A stretch of DNA of 64,000 nt from Tomocerus qinae (taxonomy: Eukaryota; Arthropoda; Collembola; Entomobryomorpha; Tomoceridae). Location: NCBI GenBank assembly GCA_020055645.1, contig CM034548.1:22040701-22104700 (forward strand). The letters run 5' to 3'. The position numbers and the translations under genes are program-made. Every line of letters starts with the position of its first letter. The first letter of the stretch is position 1. The notes below the pieces were generated by a model. That model did no database searches and was not told the origin of the DNA. It saw only the letters and a program-made list of their open reading frames with translations. Of the stretch, positions 7,588 to 57,400 are shown piece after piece.

Positions 7588-10436
7588 TCAAAGCTGACTT
7601 ACTACGTCACAGTCCGTTACAATTTTGTCACAGTCGACATCTTCCCCATTGGCAACTCGAGTTTGTATAGACTTGGCAAACTCTGTGGCTGTAGTCTCTT
7701 TGGTCAAATGACCCAGTCCGTATCTAAACAATCATTAATTATGTAAAGTGTAATGCATATTGTACCTTTACTCAAACACCTAGCACAAAGAAGTACCGTT
7801 TTACCCATGTAGGTTGATTGTAATACAATGAAACAAAAGACATCCAGTCACAATAGAATGTAAACATTATGCAATAGTTAAAAGAAATACGCGGTTAACT
7901 ATTCTACTGATACGATTAATACTACAGTACACAAAAATGTGTTACTAAGCTATCTACGAGATAATAGTTTCAATTTTGTACTGTAAAATGGTGAAAGCAA
8001 ATAATGAAGAGACTTACACATAAAGTTGAGAAAGCAGACTGTCTTCATCTGCAGTGGCATTTTGAACGGCGAGACGACAAATATAAAGTCTGGCACAAAC
8101 AGGTTTTTCTGAAATTTGTCTATAGGTCTTGTACATGTCATCCAATTTATCCACTACAGAATAAAACATGTTCTCCGGCCCTTCCACGCTTCTCTTCGTT
8201 CTCGTTGTTGGAGTTCCGAAAATTTTCTAATATTCCAGAAATCAAAAATCTTTGTTTTTAAAACTAAATATGATTTGGTAGTCTCAATTTGTGGTCGACT
8301 TGGTTTTTGTTTTCGTCAAATAGATAATAGGTATTCATAGTGTAATAGATACAAGTAGGAGTGTCAGTCGTCAAGTCAAAAAGATAAAGGAGGAGTAGGT
8401 CATGTCACTTACGTCCATTTTGGTCATGAAGTTGGGCACATGGAAGTCAGACATCATTAGGGGAGTGTTAATGTCAACCACATCCAGAGACCTGGAGCTT
8501 GTGTTCAGTAAGGTCAACAAAAGTTGTAAAAGAAAAGCTCCGAAAGCCAAGGCTGCCAAAAGGGAGAAAGGGTCCAGTCCACCAAGTCCACTATTCCTGT
8601 TAGGTAGTACGGCCAAGTGCCACTTAATCCAGATTGACTTTTCAATACTTTACTCTAGCAATGTTAGTATCTACTACCAGGTACTCGAGGATTGCCAACT
8701 AATAGTTAATACGAAACAATCCTAAAACTTTTAAAATCTTCACTGTATAATATATGATTTGTCCCTATTTGTCATTTTAAAAATTGTCAGTTATGTCAAT
8801 TCCCTATTTCAACGACCTCACTATTGTGGTAATAACAATGACAGTTGCCAATCGACACAGTCTACAAATATTGTCCAGAAATTAAAGATTTGATGTCGAA
8901 AGGTATTCGGTCATTAAGTAGTAGGATGAATGTCCGTCAAGCCCGTTCCAGTTTTGTCTTTACAGTCATGGGGAAGGTAGTCATAAAGTAGCTGACTTAC
9001 ATCCTCTACATTAGCCGTTGAAATGACATCAGAAAGGGCTAGAGGTATATCAAGATCAGAAACATCAAGCGACCTTCCACTGGGCATCACGTTGTTGTTG
9101 TTGAGTAGGTTAAAAATGACGTTAAAAAGAAAAACTCCAAAACCGAGGGTGGCCAAAATGGCATAAGGGTCCAAATAGTGCCTATTAAATGTCACAATTT
9201 GGAAAACCCATGCAAATAGTTTACTTATCTTGTAATATGAGACAATGTCGACGAAGCATACAGATATATGCTATGTAATTCAAATATCTGCTAACGATTC
9301 CTTTCAGAAATGTATTAGAAAGTGGATTATGCTAGATTGATGATGTTAATGTGCTTTTTGAAATTAAAATTAGGGATAAATTTGTAGGAAATAAGTTAGA
9401 TTGTAAGGCAAGTGATAGTTTTAGAAAAAGTTGGATACCCATAGCTGACATGGTGACCGTATCCGCCACCACCGCCGTAGCCTCCGTCGTAGCCTCCTCT
9501 GCTTTCAATAGCATTGTCATCAGTGTCGTAGCCAAGGACTCTGTTGGTGAGCTTTTTGACGGTGATCATACCTTGGATGAGGGTTTTGGAAGCAGATGTT
9601 AAATTAGCGACAGGGTCGGTTGACTTGATGGCCTGTCCATCTCTGAACTTTTTTAGCTGATCAATTCCATAGCCTAAAATTTCAACGATTCCTGGTGCTT
9701 TTCCATCTCTGGCGTTGGCTCTCTTGTCCCAGAACTCAATCATCCTGTTTCCTGAAGAAACTAAATGCTTGAGAGGATTGAGAACTCCTTGGGGAACTTC
9801 TTGGTCCATCAAACTCATCAACTTTTGTGTAAGAACTGTAGTCATAGCGGAATTAAGTCCTTGGCTGAGCGTTTTGATAGGAGTCAAGTCTAAAGCAGGA
9901 CGTTGTGTGGAAGTGGTCGATGTCGTGGAAGTGGTTGTCGTGGTTACCGGGTGAGTCTTGCTCGCCTCACTGCTCTCCTCGCCTGTCTCATTCTGAACAT
10001 CTTTCTGGTGGACATTGAAACTGTTCACCACGAAGTGATCTTTATTTCCATGATTTCCTGTTTTGTACGACAGCTTTGAGAATTTATCCCAACTGGTTTC
10101 CGAGTTTTTCCATTTGGAGGCAGAAGCCATATCGGATACCTTGCCAGAGCGACTATGGAAATCTTGAGAGGTGTAGCTGGGAGAGTACAAAGGGTGAGCG
10201 ATGTCAGAGGAGGAATAATGAAAAGAGTAGCCACGGCTTTCCTTCCTAGCCGAGTGATCTGAGACGGAAGGAGAAGATGTAGATGTGGACGTTACTAATT
10301 TATTTCTAAGATCATACAATGTTCCTAAATGACCACGAACCACACGCCCAATATTATCCATCTCGAATTCAAAAGAGTCTGGCACATTTTGAAGAAGAAC
10401 ACTAACTAAAATGCAAATACAAACTGAGCTCTTCAT
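7588..10436 (-). CDS. gene A: Gly/Tyr-rich secreted or membrane protein with four-Cys module, alternative TM exons
   Basis: Exons on the minus strand: 10436-9439, then either 9181-9001 (2a) or 8596-8413 (2b), then 8226-8018 and 7723-7588. Phases close, giving 507 aa (2a) or 508 aa (2b). With 2a the order is: signal peptide ~1-20 (MKSSVCICILVSVLLQ), Ser-rich region, Thr/Ser tract ~165-177, helical segment ~185-305, Gly/Tyr-rich stretch ~314-333, hydrophobic segment ~339-360 after a D-P-Y/F motif, a dibasic RTKR at 402-405, then Cys 437/443 and Cys 494/501. The start is the ATG opening a clean signal peptide. Genes B and C upstream on the same strand have the same layout and the same phase-2 intron between the two Cys pairs, so the three are paralogs. 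The four-Cys end recalls the arthropod DM4/DM12 family, but that is a resemblance only. Location (secreted or single-pass, perhaps cuticle-related) is inferred; the function is unknown. Confidence 0.85.
8413..8596 (-). CDS. gene A alternative exon 2b (hydrophobic segment)
   Basis: This 184-nt exon is preceded by CTACCTAACAG and followed by the strong donor GTAAGT. It encodes a DPFSLLAALAFGAFLLQ-type segment, then RSLDV and SDF. It enters in phase 2 and leaves in phase 0, exactly like exon 2a, and aligns with it along its whole length. If joined after exon 2a (which ends in phase 0) its first codons would be GAA TAG, a stop, so the two exons should be mutually exclusive. Confidence 0.8.
9001..9181 (-). 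CDS. gene A alternative exon 2a (hydrophobic segment)
   Basis: This 181-nt exon follows ATTTAATAG and ends at the donor GTAAGT. It encodes DPYAILATLGFGVFLFN, then an Asn-rich turn, RSLDV and PLALSD. Its borders and phases match exon 2b, which lies 404 bp downstream in the direction of transcription. Confidence 0.82.
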
Positions 10437-15831: not shown

Positions 15832-18386
15832 TCAACCGGCACAAATAATATCATATTTACAAGACAGTTTACTTCCTCTCATTTTTCGGCTGAGTAACTG
15901 CTCAACAAATTCTACATCTTCTTTATTAAACTCCAACGCTTCCTTAAACACGTCCCTGGGAATACAAAAAAAGGAAAATTATTATTGAAAATTTTTATTC
16001 GACATAGTTTGTGTTTTATGAAAAATCCTTATTTTGCTTAAGTAGGTAAACACCAATGGGAAATTAGGAAAAAAGGATATGAATCCCTGTTTTTGCCAAC
16101 TTTATTTGATACTATTACAATTCACAATGCATGTATATGGGCGAAATTGGTAAAAGTTATAATTGATTTACTATCTTAATTTCTGAAATTAAAATCGCAT
16201 TACATTAAAATATTTGACATTAAATCCTGGTAATAAACTAAATCAAACATGGCCATGCAAAGTGTAAATATTGGGCTGCGTGCAAGTATAGGGATTGTAT
16301 ACAATTACTCGTTGGGTCAACATCGCCAATGGGATGTTAATAATTGTGCATAGTGAATACGCAAGAGAATCATACAAGATCTTCCGGATGGATCTAGCTA
16401 ATAGCATATTCATTACAATGCAAACAAAAGTGTGCCTGTAAATGTGCAGATGCTTTTTGCTGAAATCTGTAAGCTGTAAATGGGATTCAACATGGTTAAT
16501 AGTAGAAAAGGTTTCTTACAGTAGATGAGGTTTTTTGCCAATGAATTCGACAAGTTGGCAGAGTTTAAGATGTCGACAGTAAAGTGACCCAATTCGTTCC
16601 AGTTCTTCAATCTGATCCCAAATGTATTCTAATTCGTGCATTACAATCTGTACATTATTCTCTCTGACAGAACGCAATTTCCTTGCGTGTTCGCGACTGT
16701 CGTAGTTAGAATTGAGAGGCATTTGTGTAAGTTGAACTTGTTGTCTGTAAGAACTCTTGCTACCAATCAGGTAAGTGTCATGGTTTGGGAAGGCTCTTCC
16801 TGTGTTATTTCGATTGAGCGATTGTTGAAGTAGGAGGCCCAGATATCTACATGGCGTTCAAAATTATTTAGGTTAATAATGCTATCCAAATTAACTTGTT
16901 CTAATCCATTCAGCTTAACTCACGTAAGAAATGCTAATCCACCCAAAATGGAGAATGGGTCCATGATACCATTTCCTCCTCCTCCGTATCCCCCGCCACT
17001 GCCACCGTACCCTCCGCCACCTCCTCCATACCCTCCGTGTCCCTTCGCCGTCCCATAACTACTGTACCCTTTGCATACAACATAAAAAAATTGAGAATAC
17101 GAATTTAAATCACGATTAAATTACGGAGATCGTAAGGTATGCCTTTACTGCTGCCACTTGGGTAGTTATCGTCATAGCCGCCATATTTTTTGTAACTGTG
17201 TTTGCTTCCTCCACCTCCACCTACTCCTCCACCTACTCCTCCACCTCCGCTCCCTTTGTTGCCAGTGCCATAACTCTTCAAAGAGTAATAGTCTTCATAG
17301 CCCTTTCCGTATGAAGAAGTATCGTATGAGTCATGTCCGTAAAGTCTACATTACATTAAATACACAAAAATAATTTTTATATGCCGACAGGGAAAGCAAA
17401 GGTAATTCGTCCATGTTATCAGGACATGGATAAATAGAATTATTGAATAGGGATATTTTATATGAATAGAAAAACCCATATTGGTCGTATCCTTGTTCAT
17501 AGCCGGTTCTATCTGGACTGACGATTTCACCTTTCCTCAACCTTGTTCGACGACTTGATTGTGAGATATCTAGGTTGGGATACTTTTTATGTCCTTTGCT
17601 TGTAGCGTCAGGTTCTTGATCACTTTTTACAAATGTATTATCTTGGTCATCAGCTCGAGACTGAATCGATAATGAATCATCGGCAGAAAATTTGGAGAAT
17701 TCCGGAAGATTTCTCAGAAACTGATCAATATTGGAATGATCTAAAAGATTTTCTATTAATTTCCAACGGGATTCTGCGTGTTCATTTAGTTTCATCGAAT
17801 TGATTACAGAAGTGGGAACTCCAATAGTGTCACTAAAAGGTATCAATGTCGTTAACATGGAATTGTATTTTGTTGTAAGGTAGTTTCTTAAGCCAGGATT
17901 CAATTTCCCACGAATTTTAATCAGTTTTTTTAGCATTTCCGTCCTGGGAATCAATTTCGTTAGCAATGCGTCCCGAGATGGTTTCGAGGATAACAACGAA
18001 GTATAACCATCCCAAGATTCACTCAGTTTATCAGTTCTTATCTCTGATAAAGACGTTATATCATTAGATTCGTTTTTGGCAGCTTCCGAACGAAATACAT
18101 CAGACAAATTAGGAGAAGGCCCAGTTCTCCAAGGATTAGAATTCGTATTTATATCGTGGAGTACCAAAGATGTATTACTTGCTATTTTATTTTCCGGCTC
18201 CTTTACTCGGTTTTTTTGCTCAAGTCTGTCTCTAAGAAGATGCAAGTTTGCTATTTTTTGTCTTGCATACTCACCAATCGATTGTGAGGAATTAGAGATC
18301 CCACTTAATAGTTTAGCCCATCTTGTCGGTTCGCGTCCACCGACCAATGCACAAAATACAAGCAAGGATAGGCTGAAGTACCACAT
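15832..18386 (-). CDS. gene B: Gly/Tyr-rich secreted or membrane protein with four-Cys module
   Basis: Exons on the minus strand: 18386-17476, 17345-17149, 17068-16924, 16846-16520, 15955-15832. Phases close to 567 aa. A signal peptide (MWYFSLSLLVFCALVGG) precedes ~280 residues of charged, partly helical sequence. Exons 1-3 then give Tyr/Gly repeats (YEQGYDQYG, GGGGVGGGVGGGGG, GYGGGGGGYGG), followed by DPFSILGGLAF running across an intron into a hydrophobic segment (~405-426). The C-terminal module has Cys 508/514 and Cys 559/565, with a phase-2 intron between the pairs as in genes A and C. The protein ends very soon after its last Cys. The exon-1 donor (GG|GTTTTT) is weak; it is chosen because phase and sequence join smoothly to exon 2. 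The exon 3 donor (GTGAGT) and exon 4 donor (GTAAGA) are good. Function unknown; probably a duplicate of its neighbours. Confidence 0.8.
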
Positions 18387-19858: not shown

Positions 19859-20821
19859 CTACCGGAAGTGGTGGATCTGCTTTTCATTGCTTGAGTTGTC
19901 AGTTTCACAGAAGCCGTAAGGAACCATTGAATTGCAGCTTTCTGGATTCCCAACAGTTCCCTCGATTATATTCAGCAGTTCAGGACCATTATTCATAAAC
20001 CGCCCCAACGCAGAGCTAAGCACAATCAGAAAAATTATTTTTTACCATTAAATCCAAAAAATCCCCTTTTACTGTCCACTGTTTATAGCTTACACGACAA
20101 TTCCTCCAAATTGAGATTTCATAGAACGAGCAGCTAGTGGAGAACTTGCTAGAGTTTCGCAAGCCATTTTTCTAATGCACTGAAACTGGACAGGATCTCT
20201 TCTGTAAGCCTGTAGCCATTGAGAGAGTCCGGATTTCTCACGAATTTCCCTCACCGTCCGACTTTTCACTCCAAGATTCTCGAACCACTTGGAATTTGTG
20301 ACCCATTCGCTAATTTTACTGACAATTTCAGGGATTTTCTCAGAGTCTAAATTGAATGGTAGATTCAGTTTGGACTGTCCCATTGACCGTCTCACTAAAA
20401 AAAATAAAAATCATAGGTAATTCATTGGAATAAGGAAAAATTGCCTAAAAAGCTCAACTATTGCATGGGGAAGGATTCTACGTTAAGTTAAATTGTGCTT
20501 ACAACTGCCTCCCAACAGCTCGAAGAATAAAGCTCCAAAGAGAGCAGCGAAGCCTGCTACTGCAATTAACGAGTATATATCATACCCACCCCCTCCGCCA
20601 TGTGGGCTATGACCCCACCCGTACTGTCGGCTGGATACCGCCTGTCCCTGGCCATAGTCGGATCCTCCCATCCTCTGCACATTCTTCGGATTCAGGAAAT
20701 TGGCTGCTACTTTTCTCTTCAGCAGATTCCACACAAAAGAGTCATCAGAATAGCCCGCACTGATACAAATAACTAAACAAAACGTCGCCAGGAATGACGC
20801 TGCACTGGGGTTTCTGAACAT
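19859..20821 (-). CDS. gene C: short paralog with signal peptide, hydrophobic segment and four-Cys module
   Basis: Exons on the minus strand: 20821-20503, 20394-20094, 20015-19859. Phases close to 258 aa. Signal peptide ~1-22 (MFRNPSAASFLATFCLV), a short linker, GGGGG at 75-79, hydrophobic segment DIYSLIAVAGFAALFGALFF (81-100), a helical region with a WLQAYRRDP motif, then Cys 179/185 (C-I-R-K-M-A-C-E) and Cys 234/242. It is the compact version of genes A and B: the long N-terminal region is absent, while the C-x5-C pair, a 48-residue gap, the second pair and the phase-2 intron between them are kept. The C-x5-C-E spacing resembles the DM4/DM12 family. An in-frame ATG lies 11 codons upstream (20854) in a poor context; the chosen ATG has A at -3 and opens the signal peptide. 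Function unknown. Confidence 0.87.
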
Positions 20822-20948
20822 TTTATGTAATAACACTGAGCAACAAAATTTCATAAAAATCTGTTTGCTATCTAACAAAAATAAGCCGATGTATTGATAG
20901 CTGTCGTGATCTATTGACTATGAACACAATGTCACGGCAATCGTTTCG

Positions 20949-26938: not shown

Positions 26939-28809
26939 ATGGCAGAAAATAAGGAACCTGAAGTATCCCCCGAAAATAATTCTTTTGAGGGTGTATTCAA
27001 CAACATAAGGATTCATTTAGATGGGAAACAAGATAAAATCGAAAGAATAGGCGCTCTGGGAAGATCGATGACGTATGAAAGCAAAAGAATCATTTTCTTA
27101 CTTCATCGCATTTCAACGTAATGTCAGATATTTTCTGTTTTTTACTAATAATACTACTGCTTGCAGACATTTACATTAATGTAAATAAATAATTGTGGAT
27201 TAAGAATCTGACCGAAGGTGTATATGTATGTAACCAAGTTATCGGACTTCCGACGATAGAGATTAATATAGGAAATTGTTCTCAAGTTTTCATACTTCTT
27301 TCGTCAGTCAAATTCCAACAAAGTACTAAATATTCAATAATAATAATATTTTCAGGGATAAAACTGTTTTGGACAAGGCCGAACTTCGCCTGAGAAATAT
27401 GCGCGACCAAGGGAATACGGAAATAATATACAAATTATCTAAAGAGCTAGAAAATCAAGACTTTTGGATGTACCTTCGTTATTACACATCCGGTAATACA
27501 CTTTTATGGGAATTGTAATTCTAACTAATTCGGTCTAATCGAGAACAGAAAGCAAAGAATGGCAAGTTTATTTTAAATGATGCATTCCATTTTTAACGGT
27601 TTTTAAGGAAAGCCATTAATACCCACTAGGTTGATTTTAAAAAGTTTGATCTATCACTGTCAATACAAAATAACTTCTAGTTTCATAATCAGAACAATGT
27701 TAACAATGTGATACTGTTTTTCAAAAAAGGTCTGAAAATGAAGTCTGAATGCCAATAACCATATAGTATTATATTACATGTATATGCCAGTGCCTCAATT
27801 AATACATTTTATATAATTCGAAGCATAGAGACGAGACTTCCGAAGCTCCCTCCGCTCTTTTTGACTCCTTTTGGTCAAAAAGATATTTTTTTCGATATGA
27901 AATTTCATCCTTCCCCGAATCTCCATTTTGTTTTATCTAAAGCTTGGTATAAGTGTCGAAGTTTTAAAGTTCACTTGACGTATACCCTGACTGTGATGCA
28001 GTGACCTGACAAAGTCACCTCCAGTTGCCTAACAATATAATTACTAGGCAGCTGGGAGTCTGTGTGACTCTTGGTGAAAAGATATGGTTGATTTTTGCAA
28101 CTTCTTTGCTCGCTTATTTCAATTAATGAGCATATTATGTTGTCACTAGAATAAAACCTAACTAGGTATGAACAGTTAACACTTAAGTTACTCCCTAGCT
28201 ATTAGACTGTCTTGATTGTGATTTCTTCTTTCTTTAAAATAGGAATTCAAGAATATGTTGAGGCATTGGCCCTGTGGAAATACTTGAAACATGGGGTACT
28301 CATTAGTTTTGAAGAAGCACAATCATTTCTTACGCCCCCGCTGGATTTGTCGAATGCAGTAGACAATATGGCTATAAATGACATTGACAAAGAAGAGAAG
28401 TTAATGGTTCCACTTCCCCCGATTGATTTCTTTTTAGGAATCGCTGATTTTACAGGAGAATTGATGAGAGCGTGTGTAAGTGCTGTGGCTGACGGAAACA
28501 AATCTTTTGCATTTGAAGCATGCTACATGGTTCAAGAAATTTACAGAAGTATGTCCTACATTATTAATAGATAATTATTGGTGATAGATATTTGCTGGTT
28601 TTAATTCACAACTATTTAAAACAGATATGTGTGGACTGTCATACATGCGAAGAGACCTTCAACTTAAGCAGAATACGTTAAAATCTAGTGTCTGCAAGAT
28701 GGAAAGTGCTTGCTATCAGTTGAGCATTAGAGACTGTTACGAGATGAATAAGCCAATTAAAGCTTGGCAAGACTACGAAGTAGAACAAGGATATGAATCT
28801 GGTGATTAG
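26939..28809 (+). CDS. TSNAX: translin-associated factor X homolog (C3PO RNase subunit)
   Basis: Exons: 26939-27117, 27356-27492, 28243-28548, 28625-28809; 268 aa (human TRAX is 290). Conserved blocks: KQDKIERIGALGRSMTYESKR then FLLHRI in exon 1; GIQEYVEALALWKYLKHG (106-123); a short acidic loop; PPIDFFLGIADFTGELMR (164-181); and in the last exon KMESACYQL. The acidic residues that bind metal in TRAX and give the TRAX-translin complex (C3PO) its nuclease activity appear to be present: E109 and E112 in EYVEA, D174 and E178 in ADFTGEL. C3PO removes passenger strands in RNA interference and trims tRNA leaders; TRAX works as a helical bundle with translin, which is not in this window. The ATG at 26939 is the first in frame after upstream non-ATG codons. 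The N-terminus lacks the basic extension of the vertebrate protein. Confidence 0.95.
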
Positions 28810-30461: not shown

Positions 30462-32182
30462 ATGGCTAGTAGTTGTCGGTTGTCTAATATTTTAACGACT
30501 AGAATTCCCCGTTACCTGACATCAACAAGGTAAATCATTAACATTTAAAATTAGCTGAAACTTAAATTTATTATTGATAGTGTTGGAATACTTTGGTGGT
30601 AGAAAAAACTGTATTATCTATTTGTCTGTCTGACTGAGAAGATTGGGATAAGTATATCAATTATATCACTCATAATACTGAGTACTGAATATATATGTGA
30701 TTAATACTAGTAAGTAATGACATAAACCAGGAGTTTATATTTATATTAAACTATCAGCTATTATTTATTTTGAGCAGCTGTTATATACTATTTATATTTA
30801 TAGGGATTATGGATACAGTTTTCATGTTTATTAGTTCCTCAGCAGAAACTGGTGACCAAGAATCAAATTTGTTTGTTAAATCAATCTAAGAAAGGGTGTC
30901 TATTTGACTAATGGTTGACTGTTTTCCCTTCTAACATTGAACATCAAAATAGCTATGTTGCGACTAAAGCACAGAAATACATATCAAAATTTGCAATGTG
31001 ACGTGTACCGAATAATTACATATGCTTGTTTTTTTTCGCTGACAGCTAACATTATTAGTTTATATTTAGATTATAATTTGATGGCTGAGTTTAATGTTTA
31101 GATTTGATGAGTTGTAATTATGTTGCAGGGGAATATGCATGACTGTTCCAAAGTTGGAAGCACAAGCTGGGGAAGGATTTCTGAGCAAATTGTTCGTACG
31201 GAAAATAGAGCCTACGAAGGAATCACATTCTACTATGTTGTCAGATAAAGAAATTATTTACGAATTGCAGACTCATCAAGTGAAACCTGCTTTTCTCGAG
31301 AAATACTTGGATAATTAGTATGATATTTTAGAACATTTAAACTAATTGATAATTGTAAAAATGTATTTAATGAGATTATGGCTCATCAGTGAGAAGCAAG
31401 TCGACGTGGCACATGAATTAAAAGCAGGCGAGATTGTGGCCAGTTATTGCGTCGCAATTGGTGATCAAGATCAAGTGATTCATATCTGGAAGTATACAGG
31501 TGGTTATGGAGGAGTTGACTCAGCTAGACAAATCCTTAGCACTAATGAGGTAAAATGTGTAATCTATCTTCTAGTATTCAAGACAAATATTTTTTTGTAA
31601 ATAACTTGTAAAACAGAATATTCGCCTGAATTTTAAATAAATGTTTCAGGACAGTGTAAAGCTTGTGAAGGAGCGATTAACCTGCTTACGGAATAGAAAT
31701 AGTCAGTTTATGCTTCCATTTAGCTATTGGCCTCCTCCAGAAAAACGATCAGGTGGAAACATATACGAGATTAGGAGCTACATCCTAAAACCTGGAACTA
31801 TGATCGAGTGGGGAAACAACTGGGCACGTGCTATTAACTTTCGACAGCACAACGAAGAAGCATTTGCTGGGTTTTTCTCCCAAATCGGGCGTCTCTATAA
31901 TGTCCATCATATTTGGTGTAAGTTTTCGTCTTATAGTACTATATATAATCCTTTCAGAATCTTTGACACATTTCCTTGCCATTTAAGGCCAATGAGTTCT
32001 AATTTCTAATAAAAATGTTTGATGTGCATCAAGGCTACAAAGACTTACAAGCTCGGAAGCAAACTCGAGAAGCTGCTTGGAGAAAGCCTGGCTGGGATGA
32101 ATGCGTAGCTTACACCGTGCCTCTAATTCGTGAGATGGACTCGAGAATCTTAATTCCCACCAAATTCTCTCCAACTCAATAA
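30462..32182 (+). CDS. NIPSNAP: NIPSNAP family mitochondrial protein
   Basis: Exons: 30462-30529, 31129-31317, 31390-31549, 31650-31917, 32034-32182; 277 aa (human NIPSNAP1 is 284). Residues 1-23 are Arg/Ser-rich without acidic residues, as in a mitochondrial targeting sequence. The two ferredoxin-like halves are visible: [18 protein letters not shown] in the first, with [15 protein letters not shown], and [19 protein letters not shown] (178-196) then WARAINFR and [16 protein letters not shown] in the second. The C-terminus has [17 protein letters not shown] and [20 protein letters not shown] proteins lie in the mitochondrial matrix and outer surface and mark damaged mitochondria for autophagy. 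The exon-3 acceptor is taken at CATCAG because an earlier AG would create a stop. The stop codon lies inside an AATAAA hexamer. Confidence 0.96.
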
Positions 32183-54414: not shown

Positions 54415-57400
54415 TCAAAATCCCCCGAAGCCCATGTGACCCAGGTCCATGCCTTCCTGTCTGAGATGAAGACGCTGCGTGAAGCGTTGGCCACTCGCGC
54501 CATTGGATGTCGTCATGGGATGGCCATGACCATACGAAGTTGGACCCGGGTAGGCAGAAGAGTAGCTTGGAGTACTTGCATAGCTTGATGGTGGCAGGTG
54601 AAGACCCGCTGATGCGGAGTGCGGGTAGCCCGCTGTGCTCGGACTGGCGTACTGCCCGTGATAACTGGGGTAGCCGAACATGATACCCGAAGAGGGGGCA
54701 GGGGGGCAGTAGGTGGGACCTAGACTGTTGACTGGGAAACTGGAACTCAGTTCCGAAGGGTAGTAGGGAGAGGAAGTGTAGTGGGGCGAGGCTGGGTAAG
54801 AGGAGGGAGTCCCGTGCCCGTAAGGAAGGAACCCCGACGGCACTTCTCCGTAGTGACCGTGTCCACTGTTGGACATTGACGACGTCACACTGGGCAGTGC
54901 GCACATGGACTGAGAGTGGGCAATCGAGTCGGAGACGAGGCCAGTCAGACACACTCCACTGCTAACCGAAGGACCACCAACGTCCGAGTCAGCAATGCTC
55001 GGGATCTGATCAACTAGCGACTCCAGACCTGAGAGAGACTTTGATGCCACGTCCAGAGATTTCGTCTCGTATGGACTGTGGTAGGACGACCTCGTCTGTT
55101 GCATCCCCCCGTCATTTCCACCATCTACAAACCATCAAGTTCGAATTAAAAATGGAATCCTCATCTTTTAGATTAAAGAAATTGCCACTTTAAGAACGAC
55201 CAAGGCCACAGCGAGGGGGTACTTGGGCACGCCCCCCAAAATTTTGTCTCAAAACGCAAAAAAATTTTTTTTTTGGCCCCCCCACCGAAATTTTTTTTGA
55301 CTACGGCCCTGCCCTGACAACGAGATACAATTTAGCCTTCAGAGCTAGTGTCCAAATTCTATTTCATTTCTGTCAAGGAAATTGAGAATTAATTAAACTA
55401 CCTCCCTTATTGTCCTTTAATTACTACAGTACAAAAATAATTATCTTTAAGACTTAAGATATGAAACACAATGATGGATTAACTAACCATTGGGGTACTT
55501 TCCTCGTGACATCGGAGGTTGATAATTTTGAGATCGAGTATTGTTCAAGGTGTGAAGACGATTATCATATGCGTGGTGAAATGGGATGTAGGAAGACTCA
55601 TGGGAGTCAACTGATTGTTGCGGGTGTGGATTGAGTCCAGGGGAAGAGTAGAGACCGGCCGAAGGGTTGCAATTCGAAGGGTTGTGATTGTGGTTGACTT
55701 GGAGAGCGGGCATTTGGAGTTTGGAGCCATGTTCCGCCTGTTGACTCTCATCTCTCAAGTGATTGACAACCGACAAGCCATCAAACACATTTTCAGTCTG
55801 ATTATTAAGAGGGGAGGGGGGTGCGGAGCCGCAGGAGATAGCTGCGCTGATTTCGGAAGACAAGTCAGATTGGGTGGTGAAGGAATGATGAGATGGAGAG
55901 GGGCCCCCGCTGCCGGCGTTGGACAACGACCCATTCTCTTCTCTGCGGCGGTCTTCGTTACTAACATTCGTGGCGGTGGAGTAGCCGCTGCTGACTGACG
56001 ATGCCGTCTGAGTGTGACAGGTCCCTATACTACTCGGCGCGCTGTTCTCCAGAACGTCCGGAGTGTTGCTCCCCATGGATCGGTTCGGCGGACTCTCCTC
56101 CAGCACCCTCGTCTTTTTCGGGCGACCGCGACGCTTCCTCGGCACCTCCTCCTTCACATTCCGACCCGCTTTCCGAACATCTTTATCCACACCGTTCAAC
56201 AAACCGATGTTACCCACTTTCTCCATACATTTCCGCTCCAGCTCAGCGATCTTCGATTCCGAGTTGATGACTGGCTTCCCTCGTTTCGCCTTGTTGTCAT
56301 TGGGCGGGGTTGTGTTGTGTTTCTCCATCCCTTTTCGGGGACGCCCTCGCTTTTTCTTTGCAGGGACAATGGCGGCGGACGTATCCTCATTGTACGGGGA
56401 GGACGCTGGCCCCAGAAATTTATTTGATTCACTAATTGTACCCTTAGTAGCTTTGCTCGTCTCGTTGAAAACAACTTCAGAGTCGTCCAAGTCGGATATA
56501 ATCCCATTTAGGTAGTCTCGAAACTTCTTCAGAGCAGTGTAGAACGGAACTTTGTCAGCTGCTCTGGGCAGTTGGGCACACCGAGCGCTTGATGATGGCA
56601 TCACCCAAATGTACTGTCAAGAAAATACTCAAGTATATTTGGTTATCCTTAATAGAATTTATGCTAAGGTTGAAACGAAGTTTACCGTATTTGTCCCTTC
56701 GACAAAATCAGCTTGGCGACCAAATGGAAAGTCCTTCTTCCCTGAAAATACTTCATAGATGAGTTTTCCATTGAAAACGGCCACTTTCGGTTGATATTTT
56801 TGTAGCTTTTCTAAAAGAATCTGACTCCCTTGCTTGATTTCCCTTCGCGTTAGGTCTGCACTGCCTTTCGTTGGGCGTGCTACCATATTAGTGAAACCGA
56901 TCCCATAGCGTAGAAGATTGTAATCATCATCTGAGGTCATAGGCTCCGGCACAAGTCCAGACAGGTACAGGCATTTCCCTTTTTCACAATTATAATTATA
57001 AGCAATACACTTCTGATAGCTTTTTATCTATAGCTTTAGTGGTAGTAAAGTACTAGAGGTATTCCCTATTGCAAAGCACGTATAAAATATCCAATTAAAT
57101 TTGATATTGCTGTATAGTATTGCTTTCAGAACTTTCAAAGTGTGTCATTTTATACATTCATTTATTATAAATCTTGAATGATATACTTTATAATATATTT
57201 ATAAGAAAGCTATTATTATTATTTTAATACTAGTCTGTGATCATGTTTTATTCATGATTATTAGCGGACTTGGAAAAGATGTTTTTACTTAAAAGTAGCT
57301 CAATAAAATGCATCAATAAAGTATGATGTTGACACACGATATGGTGTCAACGTAGTTAATACTTCAGTAGTGTAATTTTTGGATTAGAAAAGCTTTTAGG

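Follow-up and report, generated by a model that had tools for sequence, protein, structure and literature searches.

Two adjacent homologous exons as candidates for mutually exclusive splicing of a hydrophobic segment in a gene of Tomocerus qinae

The analysis of a 64,000-nucleotide stretch of Tomocerus qinae DNA (the window, to which all positions refer) indicates that one gene, gene A, probably yields two isoforms, each with one of two mutually exclusive exons, X1 and X2, that would have been born of a tandem exon duplication within the gene. The original prediction was that one of two hydrophobic segments would be chosen while the rest of the protein is kept constant. Mutually exclusive exons (MXEs) appear to fit this arrangement best, because X1 and X2 are intact and homologous, cannot be combined in frame, and one of them is required for the frame. 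The coordinates of the features concerned are given in Table 1.

Table 1. Positions of gene A, its exons and its paralogs in the window
Feature	Position	Strand	Description
Gene A	10436-7588	-	Exon 1, X1/X2 alternative, exon 3, exon 4
Gene A exon 1 (coding part, 998 nt)	9439..10436	-	Phase 2 exit; same phase and matching place as paralog B intron 1
Gene A X1 (first candidate alternative exon, 181 nt)	9001..9181	-	Phase 2 in, 0 out; donor GTAAGT
Gene A X2 (second candidate alternative exon, 184 nt; 178 nt if start 8590)	8413..8596	-	Phase 2 in, 0 out; donor GTAAGT
Gene A X1-X2 intron, 404 nt	8597..9000	-	Contains TACTAAC branch-site-like motif
Gene A exon 3 (common to both forms)	8018..8226	-	Phase 0 entry; basic RTKRS stretch, CARLYIC
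Gene A exon 4 (common to both forms)	7588..7723	-	Ends ...DCDKIVTDCDVVSQL stop
Paralog B	15832..18386, approximate extent	-	Single hydrophobic version; intron inside hydrophobic segment
Paralog C	19859..20854, approximate extent	-	Single hydrophobic version, in first exon/ORF

Gene structure and reading frame

Re-derivation of the coordinates, lengths, phases and GTAAGT donors of X1 and X2 gave the same values as in the original prediction. Exon 1 encodes a signal-peptide-like start, a Thr/Ser-rich stretch and a Gly/Tyr-rich tail. These are followed in the protein by the hydrophobic segment, by the RTKRS stretch, which we take to be furin-like, and by a C-terminal part bearing the cysteine pairs C-x5-C and C-x6-C. 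The hydrophobic core reads ILATLGFGVFLFNVIFNLL in X1 and LLAALAFGAFLLQLLLTLL in X2, with RSLDV further on in both. It scores 2.15 and 2.43, respectively (Kyte-Doolittle, 19-residue window), so that its earlier description as a membrane or hydrophobic segment is a fair one. Besides the signal-peptide-like start, it is the single strong internal hydrophobic stretch of the protein. At the end of exon 4 (window 7605-7588) the sequence GTAGTAAGTCAGCT is found, which has GTAAGTCAGCT in common with the donor of X1 (at 9000). An extra donor can be read in exon 4 immediately upstream of its stop codon.

With X1 alone or X2 alone, open products of 507 and 508 amino acids are obtained, respectively. Skipping of both exons shifts the frame, and the frame is kept only in transcripts with exactly one of them. 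It had been claimed that joining both exons gives GAA TAG at once. This holds for the X2 start at 8596, where X1 (...VED) is followed by E and a stop, one codon past X1. It does not hold for the start at 8590, with which the TAG is removed, yet a stop is reached 38 codons past X1. A further start at 8647 leads to a stop after one codon. Since a stop arises with each X2 start examined (8596, 8590 and 8647), the broader statement that inclusion of both is lethal to the frame stands.

By published criteria, MXEs are predicted where exons are homologous, of similar length and in the same reading frame, with their splice sites conserved (PMC3923563). X1 and X2 are adjacent exons with sequence homology, they are similar in length (181/184 nt), with the same phases (2 in, 0 out) and compatible GT-AG sites, and transcripts carrying both or neither would be non-functional, the last being a supporting and not an obligatory feature. 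On these sequence criteria X1 and X2 qualify as candidate MXEs, and their exclusive splicing is predicted.

Homology and maintenance of X1 and X2

All AG-to-GT segments from 90 to 320 nt long that lie between 9438 and 8227, fit the phases, contain no stop and reach a donor score of >=2.5 were enumerated; this threshold and all donor ranks below refer to an approximate scoring matrix. Five candidate exons were found between exons 1 and 3, all being variants of X1 (two) or of X2 (three), and the identical five were recovered at a donor threshold of 0. Dinucleotide shuffles of the same region gave a mean of 0.10 candidates, with a disjoint qualifying pair in 0/300.

The two exons share 26 of 55 aligned residues, 15 of those 26 being encoded by different codons. 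The alignment score of 94 lies beyond all shuffles, the highest values being 42 among 5000 full shuffles and 49 among 5000 made within blocks of 10 residues, which bears out the prediction that X1 and X2 are aligned versions of one segment. At the DNA level the exons match with a score of 36 (0/300 shuffles as good), whereas the introns flanking them show no mutual similarity (88/300 and 85/300 shuffles as good), and the duplication is therefore not a recent one. The genome (334 Mb, 115 contigs) was also searched with X1, and at least X1 and X2 themselves were found. A third X1-like place at E <= 0.001 was not among the matches listed for the whole genome, so that a further copy was not seen at that sensitivity. 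A search of the genome with the C-terminal part of gene A returned the two exons that encode it and a further place at E 0.85.

For the 55 aligned codons, three methods gave a dN of 0.46-0.49 and a dS of 1.5-1.7, with a dN/dS of about 0.3; the alignment was picked for maximum similarity, which inflates identity, and dS is near saturation. The differences by codon position were 23/17/31. In an unconstrained simulation (mean of 71 differences), at least 26 identical residues were reached in 14 of 4000 runs, and the observed identity in 49/4000 and 4/4000 at slightly lower and higher divergence, respectively. Third-position changes outnumbered second-position changes as strongly as observed in 16/4000 unconstrained runs. 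As the simulation was done without gapped realignment, these figures somewhat overstate the constraint. Given the 26/55 identity, the dN of ~0.48 and the dS of ~1.6, X1 and X2 both look maintained.

Sequence criteria alone are no proof of mutual exclusion, since for human 1,399 exons were validated out of 6,541 MXE candidates (PMC5740500). The same figure speaks for a reading in which one exon only is in use, the other being a duplication relic, as yet undecayed, or else an exon included at trace level. Such a one-sided relic is unlikely here. Both exons are open, both keep their AG and GTAAGT, and the dN/dS is ~0.3; a freely drifting copy retains an open frame and its AG and GT ends in only ~0.3% of simulated runs at 0.8 substitutions/site, and in 3-4% at 0.4 substitutions/site.

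Splice sites and enforcement of the exon choice

X2 has a second candidate acceptor 6 nt downstream of the first (exon starts 8596 and 8590; window 8599-8590), and use of the two would yield isoforms with GNSGLGG or GGLGG. Because longer in-frame exon starts exist at 9223 for X1 and at 8647 for X2, the exact 3' splice sites of both exons are to be regarded as putative. The exon 1 donor, TGG/GTATCC, which is common to the X1 and X2 routes, is weak, with ~23% of the GTs in the window scoring as well, and the X1 donor ranks in the top 1.6% by the same matrix. The TACTAAC motif lies at 8669-8663, and several AGs come after it, ~60 nt ahead of the acceptor of X2; the corresponding exon starts 8654 and 8652 fall outside the list of open candidates and the third (8647) inside. 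Together, TACTAAC and the AGs upstream of X2 may act as a decoy.

The X1 frame remains open past its donor for 28 more codons, up to a stop at 8916-8914. This could suggest that X1 and X2 occur in transcripts with different ends, X1 serving as a 3' terminal exon or X2 having its own first exon. We consider this improbable, as no polyadenylation hexamer (AATAAA or ATTAAA) is found on the coding strand from 9438 to 8227, the X1 donor is among the best in the window by the approximate matrix, and the read-through tail of X1 would be without the common C-terminal part. The lack of such a hexamer between exons 1 and 3 also makes it less likely that one of the two exons belongs to a separate gene.

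If X1 and X2 are mutually exclusive, several ways of enforcing the choice can be considered. The exon 1 donor matches the U12 consensus in its first six bases (GTATCC), and the genome carries a U12 RNA gene (RF00007, 84.7 bits), so that a U12-like donor of exon 1 against U2-type donors of X1 and X2 might block X1-X2 joining. This is very doubtful, however. The window contains 63 copies of the motif (A/G)TATCC, counting both strands, the exon 1 donor goes on with AAC instead of TTT, branch-site matches as good are found in 59% (X1) and 95% (X2) of 4000 random stretches, and paralog B has GTTTTT at the equivalent donor. U12-dependent exclusion was rejected, the six-base donor motif being common in the window and branch-site support being absent.

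Selection of the exon by competing docking and selector RNA pairings, as in Dscam, is a mechanism described for insect MXEs (PMC6071210), and paired elements of this kind had been proposed as a check. In the three introns none stood above shuffles, in a comparison within a single species that weak elements could escape. For the best inter-intron helices, shuffles were as stable in 52/60 (I1-I2), 30/60 (I1-I3) and 21/60 (I2-I3) cases, and for the whole intron duplexes in 110, 128 and 99 of 200, respectively. It seems improbable that such pairings select the exon in gene A. Steric exclusion operates where the donor lies less than ~50 nt from the branch point (PMC5740500), and is ruled out by the 404-nt X1-X2 intron.

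No dedicated switch is thus visible, the intron pairing being at chance and the flanking introns dissimilar. In human, the lengths are no multiple of three in 377/629 clusters (60%), and exon-joining reads are present for 83/377 of these (PMC5740500), so that the frame often works together with further regulation. Frame incompatibility alone would permit leaky double inclusion of X1 and X2. The favoured mechanism is competition between acceptors or splice sites combined with frame-based discarding of wrong joins. The weak common donor of exon 1 would join the acceptor of either X1 or X2 by competition, with splicing factors tuning the choice, and transcripts with both or neither exon, being out of frame, would probably be cleared by nonsense-mediated decay. 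The predicted product is a single protein, secreted or attached to the membrane, that would contain either of two hydrophobic helices together with the linker following it, while the N-terminal part and the Cys-bearing C-terminal part would stay constant around the swapped segment. Which helix is used may adjust how the protein inserts into the membrane or assembles. A more far-reaching proposal, which we regard as speculative and rather unlikely in its full form, is that gene A encodes a secreted or membrane protein from an arthropod family not yet described, whose behaviour at the membrane (e.g. anchoring, assembly) is switched by regulated splicing of one or the other hydrophobic helix, enforced mainly by frame incompatibility and decay and not by dedicated RNA structure.

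Paralogs, protein family and known systems

Within the window, paralogs B and C have one version of the hydrophobic segment each, as had been predicted. Intron 1 of paralog B has the same phase as in gene A and lies after the Gly/Tyr stretch. Its donor, TGG/GTTTTT (window 17478-17470), is poor and corresponds in place and phase to gene A's weak donor. Paralog B has 535 codons without a stop.

Searches against Pfam with isoform X1 of gene A, part of isoform X2, paralog C and the C-terminal parts of all three genes gave nothing above the curated cut-off. Under the cut-off, EVI2A, DUF1233 and RhoGEF were the only matches for genes A and C and the three C-terminal parts. No match was found in the PDB for the 462 amino acids of exons 1, X1 and 3, and of 280 stretches in viral contigs that fitted a pattern derived from X2, 0 were confirmed. 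From its C-x5-C and later second cysteine pair, gene A was presumed to resemble the DM4/12 domain proteins (PF07841). A profile match is absent in A, B and C: no PF07841 match was obtained for the C-terminal parts at E up to 10, in a test where the HMMER filters discard most matches above ~0.1 and the parts of B and C, here as in the other comparisons, had been joined by eye. A DM4/12 identity is not supported by this test. Outside these genes, the genome does contain four places that match PF07841, a family typical of insects. Other ORFs of the window, at 28206-28574, 31641-32009 and 56659-57027, match translin, NIPSNAP and the uracil-DNA-glycosylase superfamily.

A narrow search of the literature on insect MXEs for a protein with a signal peptide and a glycine-rich part found none, which is no proof of novelty. 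Some swapped exons of insect channel genes, such as those of the ryanodine receptor and TrpA1, encode membrane segments. In these genes, as is predicted for gene A, a membrane-type protein is diversified by exon choice. Unlike them, gene A gives no channel match; its protein has a signal-peptide-like start and, in its interior, a single strongly hydrophobic stretch.

For Drosophila melanogaster, PMC6071210 lists 126 MXE clusters, 102 of which consist of two exons. As these form the majority, the case of gene A would belong to a known arrangement. Like the Drosophila two-exon clusters, X1 and X2 are adjacent, homologous, nearly equal in length and of the same phases, with one of them required. 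Unlike those clusters, gene A is known from sequence alone, its family is named by neither Pfam nor the PDB, and a docking/selector signal was not found. Apart from the protein family, the arrangement would represent a known form of alternative splicing, to which gene A would contribute a frame-locked cluster of two exons, in a protein unnamed by the searched libraries, with the hydrophobic segment indicated as the part that is diversified.
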